This document shows, in pieces, positions 40,888 through 45,203 of a stretch of DNA of 46,224 nucleotides. The position numbers and the translations under genes were made by a program. Origin of the DNA: Campylobacteraceae bacterium (lineage in GTDB: Bacteria; Campylobacterota; Campylobacteria; Campylobacterales; Sulfurovaceae). Below the pieces are notes generated by a model, which saw only the letters and a program-made list of their open reading frames with translations, had not been told where the DNA came from and did not search any database. Numbering within the stretch: the first letter of the stretch is position 1; every line of letters begins with the position of its first letter. The DNA lies in NCBI GenBank assembly GCA_027080995.1, contig JALWNT010000063.1, positions 1 through 46,224 of the forward strand, given 5' to 3'.

Positions 40888-42075
40888 ATGGTCCGATTGC
40901 GCCCCGTCGAGCCGCTCGATACCGCCTATCTCGAAGAGCTGGGGTTCACTTGGCATACCGACAGCGACGAGACCCCTTATCTGGCCGACGTCCTCGTCGA
41001 AGTGACGGAGGCGGAGGCGGAAGCTTACTACGAAGCGGGCAACGAACTTTACGATATGTACGTTGCCGCGGGCGAGCATGTGATCGCCAACAATCTCTTT
41101 CACGAGATCGGCATCCCCTTCAACCTGGTGGAGTTGATCAAAGAGAGCTGGGAGAACGAAGTGCATTGGCATCTCTACGGTCGCTTCGATCTGGCCGGAG
41201 GGATCGACGGCAAGCCGATCAAACTGCTGGAGTTCAATGCCGACACCCCCACGGCGCTCTTCGAGACGGCGATCGTCCAGTGGGCGATCCTCAAGCGCAA
41301 CGGTCTGGACGAGATGGCCCAGTTCAACGGCGTCTACGATGCGCTGCTGGAAAACTTCAAACGCCTCGTGACGCTGGAGGAGAGCGTGGAGGGTTTCCAC
41401 GAGCGCTACGAGGGGTGGCGCTTTCTCTTTACCTCGATCCGGGGCAACGCGGAGGAGGAAAATACCGTCCGACTCTTGCAATACATTGCGACAGAGGCGG
41501 GATACGAGACGGAGTTTGCCTACATCGACGAGATCGAATTCGACGCAGAGGAGGGGATCTTCTACGAGGGGGTCAACTACGAACTCTGGTTCAAGCTGAT
41601 TCCCTGGGAGGCGATCGCCCTCGAGGAGCCGGATCTTGCGATGCTTCTGACCCAGATCGTCCGCAACCAAAAAGCGATCATCTTCAACCCCGCCTACACT
41701 CTGATGTTCCAGAGCAAAGGGATGCTCAAAATCCTCTGGGATCTCTACCCCGGTCATCCTCTGCTCCTGGAGAGCTCGTTCGAGCCGCTTAAGGGGAAAA
41801 TGCAGGTCAAAAAGCCCTTTTTCGGGCGTGAAGGGGGCAACGTTGCGATCCTGGAGAGCGACGGCAGCACCGTGGTCACCGATCTGCAGGGAGAGTACGC
41901 CAATTTTCCGATGCTCTACCAGGAGTATGCGGAGCTGCCGGCGGACACCGAGGGGCGGCGCTATCAGGCTGGGCTCTTTTTCGCCTACGAATCCTGCGGT
42001 CTGGGTTATCGGCGCGGCGGAGAGATCCTTGATAATCTCTCCAAATTCGTCGGCCACGTGATCGTTCCCGCATGA
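40888..42075 (+). CDS. Glutathionylspermidine synthase-family ATP-grasp protein (YgiC/YjfC-like)
   Basis: A 395-residue protein of the GSP-synthase ATP-grasp family without the amidase half of E. coli Gsp. Visible family features: GRFDLAGGIDGKPIKLLEFNADTP (cut: LEFNADTPT is the core) and, near the C-terminus, VKKPFFGREGGNV, an ATP/metal-binding loop. Family members form peptide-like C-N bonds using ATP; YgiC-like proteins have no settled substrate, so glutathionylspermidine production here is not claimed. It sits between the UPF0323 lipoprotein and an L,D-transpeptidase and overlaps the latter by ATGA. Confidence 0.85.
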   Translation: MVRLRPVEPLDTAYLEELGFTWHTDSDETPYLADVLVEVTEAEAEAYYEAGNELYDMYVAAGEHVIANNLFHEIGIPFNLVELIKESWENEVHWHLYGRFDLAGGIDGKPIKLLEFNADTPTALFETAIVQWAILKRNGLDEMAQFNGVYDALLENFKRLVTLEESVEGFHERYEGWRFLFTSIRGNAEEENTVRLLQYIATEAGYETEFAYIDEIEFDAEEGIFYEGVNYELWFKLIPWEAIALEEPDLAMLLTQIVRNQKAIIFNPAYTLMFQSKGMLKILWDLYPGHPLLLESSFEPLKGKMQVKKPFFGREGGNVAILESDGSTVVTDLQGEYANFPMLYQEYAELPADTEGRRYQAGLFFAYESCGLGYRRGGEILDNLSKFVGHVIVPA

Positions 42076-42635
42076 AAACGTCAACGATAAGATTTTTTTT
42101 CACCGTTTTGGTTTCGGGTCTTGTGTCGCTGACAGCCGGAAAGCCCGGACCTTTGGCTGCCGTCGACTCCGCGGGGGAAAATGCCGTTCGCGTGGTGAAA
42201 AAACCGATACTAAAAGCCCAAAAAGTCCTCATCGACAAATCGGAGCGTACGCTCTATTTGATCCGCAACGGCAAAGTCTATCGTCACTATCACATCGCCC
42301 TGGGCAGGCACCCCGAAGGTCCGAAAATTAAAGAGCACGACGGACGCACCCCGGAGGGGAACTATACGCTCGATTATAAAAATGCGCAGAGCCATTATTA
42401 CCGGGCGATCCACGTCAGCTATCCCGGCCCCAAAGATCTAGCCCGGGCCAAAAAGCTCGGCATCAACCCCGGCGGGGCGATCATGATCCACGGACAGCCC
42501 AACTGGTGGGGCTGGCTTTCACCCATTCGTCAGCGCTTCGACTGGACCGCCGGCTGCATCGCCGTCAGCAACGGCGATATGGACGAGATCTGGCAGGCGG
42601 TCGCACCGGGGACGCCGGTTGAGATAAGGCCGTAA
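42072..42635 (+). CDS. L,D-transpeptidase (YkuD domain), exported
   Basis: A 187-residue protein with a signal peptide (about 1-22) and a YkuD domain (about 50-185). The catalytic motif is His140-Gly141 followed by DWTAGCIAVSN with nucleophile Cys162 (the family consensus is SHGC; TAGC is an accepted variant). It may form 3-3 peptidoglycan crosslinks or attach or trim peptides; Campylobacterota relatives such as Csd6 act as L,D-carboxypeptidases, so direction is uncertain. It ends in a repeated AAGGCCGT octamer that includes the stop codon, just before a heptad array. Confidence 0.88.
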   Translation: MKTSTIRFFFTVLVSGLVSLTAGKPGPLAAVDSAGENAVRVVKKPILKAQKVLIDKSERTLYLIRNGKVYRHYHIALGRHPEGPKIKEHDGRTPEGNYTLDYKNAQSHYYRAIHVSYPGPKDLARAKKLGINPGGAIMIHGQPNWWGWLSPIRQRFDWTAGCIAVSNGDMDEIWQAVAPGTPVEIRP

Positions 42636-42639
42636 GGCC

Positions 42640-42843
42640 GTGCTACGTATTACGTGTTACGTGCTACGAATTGGGTTGGAATATTGAGTCTTGGGCCCGC
42701 CATTGTGAACTTGATTCAGAATCCACGGTTGCCTAGGTATACGAAGCTTTGGATTCCGGATCGAGTCCGGAATGACAAATGTTTGTCAGAAAACTCAATT
42801 CTTAACACTTAGCACGTAGCACTTAACACATAACACGTAACAC
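42640..42843. repeat. Symmetrical intergenic element with heptad arrays as inverted arms
   Basis: Left arm 42640-42667: four GTRYTAC units. Right arm 42802-42843: six NTARCAC units, the reverse-complement type. GAATTG (42668-42673) and CAATTC (42796-42801) join arms to a 122-bp core. Over 34 bp the arms pair at 26 positions by my count. The core contains ATTCCGGA-TCGAG-TCCGGAAT (42753-42773), a palindrome of a type widespread in bacterial spacers. No gene is present. The helicase SD follows directly. Confidence 0.65.
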
Positions 42844-42860
42844 GAAAAAAAAGGATTCCT

Positions 42861-45032
42861 ATGGCCAAACCGGAGGCACAATGGTTGACCCTTCCTGCGG
42901 ACTATCCTCCCGAAAAGCGGGAGCGGGTTCTGCGGCGTTACGGGATCAAACCGGGAAATATCGACCGGGTCTGGGAGGCCGACGGCGCCGTACTCTATCG
43001 CCTCAAGCGGGGGCTCTCTCCCAAACTCCCGTCCGAGATGCTGCCCGATGAGGAGCGCAAAGGGCGGATCCTTCGTATCGCCGACTATATCGAGGAGTAT
43101 CGGCGGCTCATCGAGGCGGAGCGGGAGGCGGAGCGCCGCAGCCGGATCGAGGAGATCCGCCGTTTCAGCGGCCGGGAGCTGGAGAGTTTCGGCCGGGCGA
43201 TCCTGGATCTCAAGGGGCGCAGAGCCGGGCGGCTTTTCGATCTGGAGCTGGTCCGCTACGGCCGGGACCGCCGGATCGAGACGGAGATCAGCAGCGGCGA
43301 TATCGTGCTGATCAGCCGGGGCGATCCCCTCAAAAGCGATCTGAGCGCCACGGTCATGGGGGTGGGGCGCAACCATATCGAGCTGGCTTTTTCCCAGAGC
43401 CCTCCACGCTGGGCACTCAAAGAGCGGGTGCGGATCGATCTCTTCGTCAACGATGTGACCTTCAAGCGGATGGAGAGCAACCTGGAGCGGATGCGCCATC
43501 TGGAGGGTCCCTACCGCCGGATCCGGGATATTCTCCTGGGGCTGGCGGAGTGCGGCCCGGCCCCGAGGCTGGAGCAGGCCCCGATCCAGGGGCTCAATGC
43601 ATTGCAGCAGGAGGCGGTGGAGTGCTCCCTGGGGATGCAGGATCTCTTTTTGATCCACGGCCCGCCGGGGACGGGCAAGACCACGACCCTGGATCGGGTG
43701 ATCCGGGCTCACGTGGAGCAGGGGGACCGGGTGCTGGCGACGGCCGATTCCAACGTAGCGGTGGACAATCTGCTGGAGAAGCTCTCCGCCGAGGGGGAGC
43801 TGGATCTGCTGCGCATCGGCCATCCGGCGCGGATCGATTCGGCCCTGGAGCGCTACAGCCTGATGGTTCGGCTGACCCAGGCTCCCGAATACCCGGAGAT
43901 CCTGCGCCTGCAGGAGGAGGCCAAAGCCGCCGCCGAGCGCCGCAGCGCCTTCAGCAAACCCACCCCCGCCCGCACCCGGGGGATGAGCCGGGAGCGGATC
44001 CTGAAACTGGCCGAGGAGGGGCGCAGCTACCGGGGAGTAAGCCCCGAGACCCTGCGCTCCATGGCGAGCTGGTACCGGGAGGAGGAGAAGACCCAGGCGG
44101 CCTTCGACCGGCTGCGCCAGCTGGAGGAGGCGACGATCCGGCGCTTGGTGAATGAGGCGGATGTGGTGCTGGCCACCAACGCCATGGTGGGTGCCGAAGC
44201 CCTGGAGGGGGTCACCTTCGACCTCTCGGTGGTGGACGAGGGGAGCCAGCAGATCGAGCCCTCGACCCTGCTGCCCCTGCTGCGCTCCCCCCGGGGGATC
44301 CTGGCGGGGGACCACCGCCAGCTCCCCCCGACGGTGCTCAGCGATCTGGAGATCCTCAAACGCTCCCTCTTCGAGCGCCTGATCGCCGAGGGGCGCGTAC
44401 CGGCGACGATGCTGCGGGTGCAGTACCGGATGAACGAGACGATCATGGATTTTCCCAACCGGCTGATGTACGAGGGGAAGCTGGAGGCCGACGCTTCCGT
44501 CGCCAATCGCCGCCTGGAGCTGAGAGGCTCCGTCACCTCGGAGCTTCTCGATCCCCGCTGGCCCGTGGTCTTCGCCGACAGCTCCGGCACCGAAGCCCCC
44601 GAGCGCCTGCCGCCCCGCTCCACCTCCTACGAAAACCCCTGGGAGGCCCAGCAGATCGCCGGCTGGATCGGCGAACTGACCGCCGCCGGCGTCCCCGCCC
44701 GCTCCATCGGCGTCATCACCCCCTACCTGGCCCAGGTGAAGCTCCTGCGCCGGCTGCTGGAGGGAATCGAGGGGATCGAGGTCAAAAGCGTCGACGGCTT
44801 TCAGGGACGGGAGAAGGAGGTGATCTTCATCTCCCTGGTGCGCAGCAACCTGGCCCGCGCCGTGGGCTTCGTTTCCGATGCCCGGCGTCTCAATGTGGCG
44901 ATGACACGGGCGCGGAGTAAACTTGTTTTGGTGGGGGATCGACGGACTTTGGAGCCTAATGCGCCTTTTGATCGGCTTTTTAAGTGGTTCAAGGGGCGGG
45001 GTGATGCGAAGGTTTTTTCTTACCAGGAATGA
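42861..45032 (+). CDS. Superfamily 1 helicase, Upf1/IGHMBP2 type
   Basis: A 723-residue helicase. An N-terminal OB/coiled-coil region (about 1-220) precedes the motor: GPPGTGKTTT (motif I, from 267), TADSNVAVDNLL (Ia), VVDEGSQQ (II, Asp459; DEGS where DEAS/DEAT is common), GDHRQLPPTV (III), QYRMNE (IV), SVDGFQGREKEVI (V) and LNVAMTRAR (VI). Relatives unwind DNA or RNA 5' to 3'. Most of the gene (about 43,020-44,880) is far more GC-rich and CCGG/GAG-heavy than its surroundings, while the last 120 bases or so return to average, so it may be transferred or mosaic. It follows a repeat element and precedes an AT-rich ATPase. Confidence 0.9.
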   Translation: MAKPEAQWLTLPADYPPEKRERVLRRYGIKPGNIDRVWEADGAVLYRLKRGLSPKLPSEMLPDEERKGRILRIADYIEEYRRLIEAEREAERRSRIEEIRRFSGRELESFGRAILDLKGRRAGRLFDLELVRYGRDRRIETEISSGDIVLISRGDPLKSDLSATVMGVGRNHIELAFSQSPPRWALKERVRIDLFVNDVTFKRMESNLERMRHLEGPYRRIRDILLGLAECGPAPRLEQAPIQGLNALQQEAVECSLGMQDLFLIHGPPGTGKTTTLDRVIRAHVEQGDRVLATADSNVAVDNLLEKLSAEGELDLLRIGHPARIDSALERYSLMVRLTQAPEYPEILRLQEEAKAAAERRSAFSKPTPARTRGMSRERILKLAEEGRSYRGVSPETLRSMASWYREEEKTQAAFDRLRQLEEATIRRLVNEADVVLATNAMVGAEALEGVTFDLSVVDEGSQQIEPSTLLPLLRSPRGILAGDHRQLPPTVLSDLEILKRSLFERLIAEGRVPATMLRVQYRMNETIMDFPNRLMYEGKLEADASVANRRLELRGSVTSELLDPRWPVVFADSSGTEAPERLPPRSTSYENPWEAQQIAGWIGELTAAGVPARSIGVITPYLAQVKLLRRLLEGIEGIEVKSVDGFQGREKEVIFISLVRSNLARAVGFVSDARRLNVAMTRARSKLVLVGDRRTLEPNAPFDRLFKWFKGRGDAKVFSYQE

Positions 45033-45060
45033 GCATTTCCTCCCGTCCCTAGGGGATTCT

Positions 45061-45105
45061 CTTCATTTCTTTTTCCTTGTTTCGCGACAAAGAAAAGAAA
45101 CGAAG
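45061..45105. terminator. Long A/T-rich hairpin after the helicase gene
   Basis: Left arm 45061-45080 and right arm 45087-45105 pair over about 19 bp with one bulge and two mismatches (CTTCATTTC... against ...GAAACGAAG), loop TTCGCG. A further A-rich half-copy follows to 45119. Probably a terminator, possibly a repeat-family member. Confidence 0.45.
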
Positions 45106-45203
45106 TAAAGAAAAAGAAAGCGCGAGGGACTGACGCCAGGTAAATTCCTTCCTATTTATATCGCATCTATGCAGGAGTATTGAGCTTGTAACGATTATTG
45201 TGA

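Follow-up and report, generated by a model that had tools for sequence, protein, structure and literature searches.

A Transpeptidase–Helicase Spacer as a Probable Composite of a Heptad-Armed Unit and a MITE, and the Association of Heptad Arms with PF05635 Genes

Introduction

A 225-bp spacer (42636–42860) separates an L,D-transpeptidase-like ORF from a helicase-like ORF in the window, the 46,224-nucleotide stretch of DNA analysed here. With tandem heptads at both edges and palindromes between them, the spacer raises the question of whether it is one element or several, and how it came to lie between these genes. An earlier note on this DNA had taken it for a single defined unit of about 204 bp. 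The reading favored here, with a probability of roughly 0.7, is that the spacer is a composite: a gene-less, heptad-armed unit belonging to a class of PF05635 elements, which was later hit by a MITE. Its outer layer would be a gene-less member of a group of small elements bounded at each end by about four heptads, the two arrays being inverted and G-rich in the inward direction. Elements of this group that do bear a gene would hold a PF05635 protein (S23p) between the arms, at intergenic junctions and in 23S rRNA. The inner layer would be a worn 131-bp MITE with an inverted pair of CGTC-type REPs, inserted between the arms.

There is no consensus on the origin of the heptamer arrays of cyanobacteria, Xanthomonas, Beggiatoa, and others, while the origin of the 23S intervening sequences (IVSs) and the role of S23p/PF05635 are open puzzles that the link to the arms touches.

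In what follows, G000 is the genome of the window and other G numbers are genomes of the same genus. Orthologues with names suggest that the host is a Nitratifractor-like member of the Campylobacterota. Gene calls come from a simple codon-usage script. Genome counts are based on searches and on retrieved stretches of genomes; many loci were selected for holding TARCAC or the MITE, and the genomes compared are related, so the counts are not independent.

Organization of the Spacer

The features of the spacer are listed in Table 1. The symmetry attributed to it, heptad arms around a palindromic core, is confirmed: the left heptads (GTGCTACGTATTACGTGTTACGTGCTACG) and the right heptads (CTTAACACTTAGCACGTAGCACTTAACACATAACACGTAACACG) are TARCACN arrays in inverted orientation, each the reverse complement of the other, and the palindrome ATTCCGGATCGAGTCCGGAAT is present between them. 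That this is not random also holds. As single-stranded DNA the spacer folds far more stably than 200 shuffled versions (z −5.0), the genome contains TARCACNTARCAC 77 times as against 0 for a reversed-pattern control, and period 7 is enriched. The hexamers GAATTG (from 42668) and CAATTC (to 42801) both exist at the inner edges of the arms, but they are not a designed pair, because the right one consists of the last base of the MITE end, the target duplication, and the edge of the array.

Table 1. Features of the spacer and its flanking genes
Feature	Position	Strand	Basis
Upstream gene, L,D-transpeptidase-like ORF (187 aa)	42072..42635	+	ORF; name from the earlier note
Left heptad arm, 4 units, TARCACN on the minus strand, end TACG	42640..42668	-	
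TATT, left half of imperfect 4-bp target duplication (3/4 match)	42682..42685	.	
Degenerate copy of the 131-bp MITE, ~20 bp missing beside the left terminal repeat	42686..42796	+	
Left CGTC-type palindrome: CGCC, stem 42702-42709/42715-42722, loop CTTGA, tail CCA	42698..42725	+	Sequence; PMC3733652 family definition
Right CGTC-type palindrome with ATTCCGGA-TCGAG-TCCGGAAT (42753-42773), inverted relative to the left one	42750..42777	-	Sequence; PMC3733652
Right MITE terminal repeat GTTTGTCAGAAAACTC	42781..42796	-	
AATT, right half of imperfect 4-bp target duplication	42797..42800	.	
Right heptad arm, 6 units of TARCACN	42801..42844	+	
A-rich stretch, AAGGATT ribosome-binding site ahead of the helicase start	42845..42860	+	
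Downstream gene, helicase-like ORF (723 aa)	42861..45032	+	

An Rfam scan of the spacer returned no family, its best match (a viral pseudoknot, E 0.54) being at the level of chance. The L,D-transpeptidase-like ORF is the neighbor at this junction in six sister genomes as well. The AAGGATT stretch is missing at the spacer-less junction of G011, where GGAGAG is found instead.

The Inner Element

The spacer, used as a query against its own genome, gave 42 matches. Extension of 37 core copies in the G000 DNA examined yields a 131-bp consensus with the ends GAGnnCTCTGAAAAACC...GGTTTTTCAGAGnnCTC. This element is of the MITE type: it is short and non-coding, has GAGnnCTCTGAAAAACC as its terminal inverted repeats, and is present in many dispersed copies. 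Of 27 copies taken from several genomes, 21 have the same four bases beyond both ends, whereas shuffling gave a mean of 4.9 and, in 5000 rounds, a maximum of 12; the flanks of the copy in the spacer agree imperfectly (Table 1). The suspicion that the spacer holds a non-autonomous mobile unit was thus correct as regards this MITE with its 4-bp duplications, but not in counting the arms as part of the same element.

The palindromes of the MITE have the consensus CGTC-ATCCTGAA-CTTGA-TTCAGGAT-CCA, accompanied by an inverted partner. They satisfy the definition of CGTC-tagged REPs (Di Nocera et al. 2013, PMC3733652), with CGTC or TGTC heads, 8-bp stems that open with AT, 5-base loops, CCA tails, and an arrangement in dimers, here an inverted heterodimer. 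A further likeness is found in H. neapolitanus, whose CGTC REP dimers lie inside a longer palindrome that contains GAAAaACC (PMC3733652). Unlike the published description, the dimer here sits within a 131-bp element with 4-bp target duplications, which is evidence of transposition. Given these duplications, at least these CGTC REP pairs have travelled inside a transposon-like unit.

CGTC REPs are described as having no dedicated transposase (Di Nocera et al. 2013, PMC3733652). Mobilization by a RAYT/REPIN system was rejected for this genome, since PF01797 (RAYT) is absent from G000 and the palindromes are of the CGTC type rather than GTAG REPs. The exact end motif of the MITE occurs in seven close genomes of the genus, with one match in G004, and was not found in G011, G003, G007, G010, or G012; a search of plasmids with the consensus likewise gave none. 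No autonomous partner was found, all terminal-repeat pairs in the MITE's own genome being MITE-sized and a partial sampling of relatives giving nothing convincing. A 1.1-kb terminal-repeat pair at locus L229 was discarded as a candidate partner because it consists of two separate MITEs flanking ordinary genes, and the other pairs are too distant.

Arms and Core in Sister Genomes

A comparison of the transpeptidase–helicase junction across the genus separates the two layers. The arms and the MITE are both present in G000 and G009. In G005 and G002 the same arms enclose a different core. In G001 the MITE is accompanied on the right by a short arm and on the left by other repeats, and G006 has neither arms nor MITE. 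In G011, whose genome is complete and in one contig, the two genes are 8 bp apart with no spacer, which supplies the empty site between the same two genes that had been proposed as a check on insertion. Among the 37 core copies in G000 DNA, only 3 have TARCAC within 130 bp. Arms and core are separable across both junctions and copies, and therefore the arms and the MITE came independently; the MITE was probably inserted between arms that were already there.

Other junctions are similarly changeable. One has TARCAC arms in G000, G001, G006, and G009 (decayed in the last), inverted GTAACTA arms in G011, and no spacer in G003. At the second compared junction (L136 3492–3791, with orthologues at L177, L218, L217, and L224), no two species have the same mosaic, which in each combines four-unit arrays with small hairpins such as GCGTTGC-NNA-GCAACGC. 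At the third, TARCAC arms are common to G000 and G011, and other heptads are found in G009. Unbiased sampling of DNA gave 7 arrays within 120 kb of G011, none within 140 kb of G003, and in G007 a single heptad sequence in two arrays at contig ends.

Two observations concern contig ends. In G007, which is otherwise heptad-poor, positions 1–137 of L198 consist of AATGCCC repeated about 20 times with hardly a deviation. Contigs C38 and C47 of the window's genome open with the same heptad spacer in opposite orientations (L126 1–216 and L129 1–258) and therefore probably adjoin or share a repeat.

Rules of the Heptad Arrays

Among 204 internal TARCACN units from the retrieved loci, five of the seven positions are fixed in at least 98% of cases. 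Of the other two, position 3 is divided about evenly between A and G, and position 7 varies among T, G, and A, with C almost never seen. At these free positions adjacent units resemble each other no more than randomly chosen ones do (0.51 against 0.495 and 0.29 against 0.336), an independence that argues against recent tandem expansion. The idea that the arms are remnants of repeat expansion at the ends of the core fails because the core's own ends lie inside the arms, and the independence of the units also speaks against it.

Seven is the only enriched period of tandem repeats, with 67 arrays against 0–4 for each other period from 4 to 13. Dozens of different heptad sequences occur, each array having about four copies; array lengths peak at 27–32 bp, and exactly four units are found in 60 of 88 TARCAC arrays. 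In 213 arrays out of 236, with 23 exceptions, the G-rich strand points away from the nearer gene and into the spacer, and this inward rule applies both at start edges (85 obey, 8 do not) and at stop edges (128 and 15). It extends to arrays without any GG, 99 of which follow it and 13 do not. GGG is present in only 18 of the 236 scored arrays, and TARCACN has no GG. Co-directional genes flank 101 of 123 heptad spacers; in G000 the figure is 28 of 30, compared with 56 of 97 heptad-free spacers. These arrays share with the heptamers of the STRR and Rehm types their intergenic position, their tandem arrangement in about four units, the inward G-strand, and the co-directional genes; the quadruplex-capable G-tracts of the Rehm type are lacking in the TARCACN arms.

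Left and right arrays belong to one family in 11 of 52 heptad spacers, where 7.4 are expected. Because this matching is little above chance, most heptad spacers are mosaics rather than clean two-armed units, and symmetry alone is no proof of a unit. A designed hairpin was rejected on the same near-chance pairing in ordinary heptad spacers.

Heptad Arms and PF05635 Genes

The connection of heptads to a protein family began with a TARCAC-armed spacer of G000 that contains a PF05635 ORF (23S rRNA-intervening sequence protein, E 2e-32), at L135 2042–2441, which is the same as L257 (C60:37941–38340). Genomes with TARCAC arrays have 4–8 PF05635 genes each (9 of 9 genomes), compared with 0–1 in genomes without them (4 of 4). 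Within the genus, 13 of 30 PF05635 genes are preceded by a G-rich array and followed by a C-rich one. The two arrays nearly always share one heptad, and every element has its own: GAATGAG, GATTTTG, GAAGAGT, AGATGGA, GAAGGTA, GTAACTA, or TARCAC. Other genes in the same kind of loci served as a control and have arrays on both sides in only 15 of 394 cases, none of the 15 being of the same family. A score for inverted arms, obtained by inverted alignment and so independent of the array detector, is at least 18 for 25 of 45 PF05635 genes and for 5 of 418 others (Fisher 2.5e-24). Further PF05635 arms beyond the detector's calls were recognized by eye. At L277, L266, and L279, the PF05635 arms alternate 7- and 8-base units (TTATTGG / TGTATTGG), which a strict period-7 scan overlooked.

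PF05635 units also have empty and exchanged sites. One junction is empty in the complete G011 (52 bp, against about 460 bp with the element) and another in G001 (29 bp, against about 520 bp). At a single junction, six species carry three elements, with TARCAC arms in G000, GTAACTA arms in G006, G008, and G009, and AGTCGCA arms in G001 and G011. The PF05635 proteins at this junction are 85–91% identical within these groups and 50–76% between them, while the flanking DNA is 81–92% identical. When different junctions are compared, units that share a heptad also have similar PF05635 proteins (mean normalized score 0.73, against 0.26 for unlike heptads), a covariation reached by 0 of 5000 Mantel permutations, although related genomes and the assignment of some heptads by eye weaken this result. 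A literature search, largely confined to papers available without subscription, found no published link between PF05635 and heptads, and viral contigs yielded no PF05635 relatives. The association of the arms with PF05635 is the strongest new lead of this analysis; it connects a poorly understood kind of bacterial repeat with one particular family of proteins.

PF05635 Units in Other Phyla and in 23S rRNA

Relatives of the PF05635 protein were found on plasmids of Nostoc, Calothrix, Anabaena, Stanieria, Pseudanabaena, Picosynechococcus, Aulosira, Geminocystis, and Azospirillum, and most are framed by inverted heptads that in each case belong to one family. The cyanobacterial plasmids with this armed arrangement are those of Nostoc, Anabaena, Calothrix, Stanieria, Aulosira, and Geminocystis. 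In Nostoc edaphicum, a PF05635 unit with AGTAGGG/CCCTACT arms lies between two ribonucleotide reductase genes, and in Anabaena one with AGGTGAC/GTCACCT arms lies between cas6 and cas4. Units on cyanobacterial plasmids lie amid CRISPR genes three times, twice between cas6 and cas4 and once between cas10 and cmr3 (L284, L288, L292). Among solved structures, the closest to the PF05635 protein is XCC0516, which comes from Xanthomonas campestris, also the species of the GGGAATC repeats of Rehm et al.

The PF05635 frame of Azospirillum lies inside 23S rRNA with heptad arms around it. In Coxiella burnetii the 23S rRNA IVS is closed by a 28-bp terminal stem, and tandem GACAGAT heptamers directly precede its S23p ORF (PMC4990558). 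The common feature is a PF05635 protein within terminal inverted repeats, to which the Azospirillum IVS adds heptad arms. The arms of the present spacer resemble those of PF05635 elements in being inverted, of one family, and G-rich inward, and no PF05635 gene or visible remnant was found between them. Unlike a 23S IVS, the unit at 42640–42844 is intergenic, lying between two protein genes of an operon, and has no gene.

Origin of the Spacer

The interior of the spacer consists of the MITE and short unique DNA, and the unit is therefore only proposed as a gene-less relative of the PF05635 elements. Because the spacer has no PF05635 remnant, though its arms match those of L135/L257, its descent is a matter of inference: we infer that the unit descended from PF05635 elements, or was spread in trans by such elements acting on its arms. 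As to mechanism, the PF05635 protein may recognize the folded or double-stranded heptad arms and aid the spread or upkeep of armed units, and gene-less units might be served in trans by the same protein. This mechanism is preferred, albeit tentatively, and the odds are somewhat against it. The heptad units showed no target duplications, and neither a recombinase nor a reverse transcriptase could be tied to them.

Several other explanations were weighed. That the arms are terminal repeats of the core within one mobile unit of about 204 bp might be argued from the places where the two recur together, with both arms at L014 and the right arm at L013, in the same genome, and also at the orthologous junction of G009. 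The terminal repeats and 4-bp duplications, however, bound the 131-bp core alone and lie inside the arms, 34 of the 37 core copies have no TARCAC arms within 130 bp, and the arms occur without this core at the G005/G002 junction and at many other loci, so this explanation is refuted in its essentials and can be given very little credence. Polymerase slippage could instead make and keep heptads at the edges of spacers with no element involved. Copy number does vary between sister species at the same place, and heptameric over-representation has been attributed to slippage (PMC4692102); yet neighboring TARCAC units differ freely at two positions while the other five stay fixed, and slippage predicts neither the inward G-strand rule nor arms of the same family around PF05635 genes. 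It is an improbable cause. A role in RNA is about equally improbable: G-rich repeats after stops and C-rich repeats before starts, or a hairpin formed by them, would be under selection for an effect on the stability or translation of mRNA where two genes run in the same direction. The co-directional setting of most heptad spacers agrees with this, the arms of the spacer without the MITE fold well as RNA (z −5.7), and translational regulation was proposed for the TAACTGA repeats (MacGregor, PMC4679880). Against it, arms with systematic mismatches, which fold weakly in G000, are kept in two species (L122/L153), left and right families are mostly unmatched, and sister species lack the spacer at the same operon junction; nor are period 7 and PF05635 explained.

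A G-quadruplex or i-motif function, as proposed for GGGAATC in Xanthomonas and Nostoc, would share the four-unit preference, orientation, and gene context seen here. Since heptads without G-tracts obey the same rule, quadruplexes are not its general cause, nor can their formation be the general reason for the four-unit rule; this is the least probable explanation of all. An end-healing process, in which a template-copying enzyme adds about four degenerate heptads to both 3' ends of a break at a gene junction, in the manner of telomeres, before the ends are joined, would leave each edge G-rich inward. It would suit the single orientation rule for both edges, the fixed length, the two degenerate positions, and the fact that left and right families are unrelated to each other where a spacer has no gene. 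It is nevertheless very unlikely, as arms of the same family around PF05635 genes better fit an element and RVT_1 is absent from all heptad-rich genomes of the genus, occurring only in the heptad-poor G004 and G007. On the same ground, telomerase-like writing by a reverse transcriptase was rejected.

Relation to Published Heptamer Repeats

In Xanthomonas and Nostoc, a single type of heptamer is already known to follow the inward G-strand rule. Rehm et al. (2015, PMC4692102) described GGGAATC and GGGGA(C/T)T in these genera and ascribed their four-unit preference to quadruplexes. Those repeats are likewise intergenic, prefer four units, lie mostly between co-directional genes, have the G-strand as sense after stops and antisense before starts, form occasional inverted pairs, and change rapidly in sequence among close relatives. 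In contrast, dozens of heptads follow the rule here, mostly without G-tracts and in a different phylum, and they are linked to PF05635 elements and empty sites. The TAACTGA direct repeats of Beggiatoaceae, for which translational regulation was proposed (MacGregor 2015, PMC4679880), are also intergenic heptamers, many of them directly before start codons, with a patchy distribution across phyla. They differ in being another heptamer, with one indirect repeat reported and no link to an element or protein. As far as the account given in PMC4692102 extends, the STRR heptanucleotides of heterocystous cyanobacteria (Calothrix) are similar in having several tandem families dispersed in one genome; the inward G-strand rule and the PF05635 link are additions to that account.

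A broader proposal, which we hold as a possibility somewhat short of even odds, is that bacterial heptamer arrays are the ends and gene-less offspring of one mobile class, whose sole gene encodes a PF05635 four-helix-bundle protein that recognizes its own heptad. The 23S IVSs would then be the same elements in rRNA, and each protein lineage would write or select its own heptad. If true, this common architecture, with inverted four-heptad arms, the G-strand inward, PF05635 inside, empty sister sites, and covariation of heptad and protein, would unite the puzzles of the heptamer arrays and the 23S IVSs, and it would be testable in cultivated strains.

One further repeat lies just beyond the helicase-like ORF. 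The sequence CATTTCTTTTTCCTTGTTTCGCGACAAAGAAAAGAAACGAAG...GCGCGAGGGACTGACG is found at 45040–45140 in the window; in G001 and G006 it is located in the orthologous transpeptidase–helicase spacer instead.
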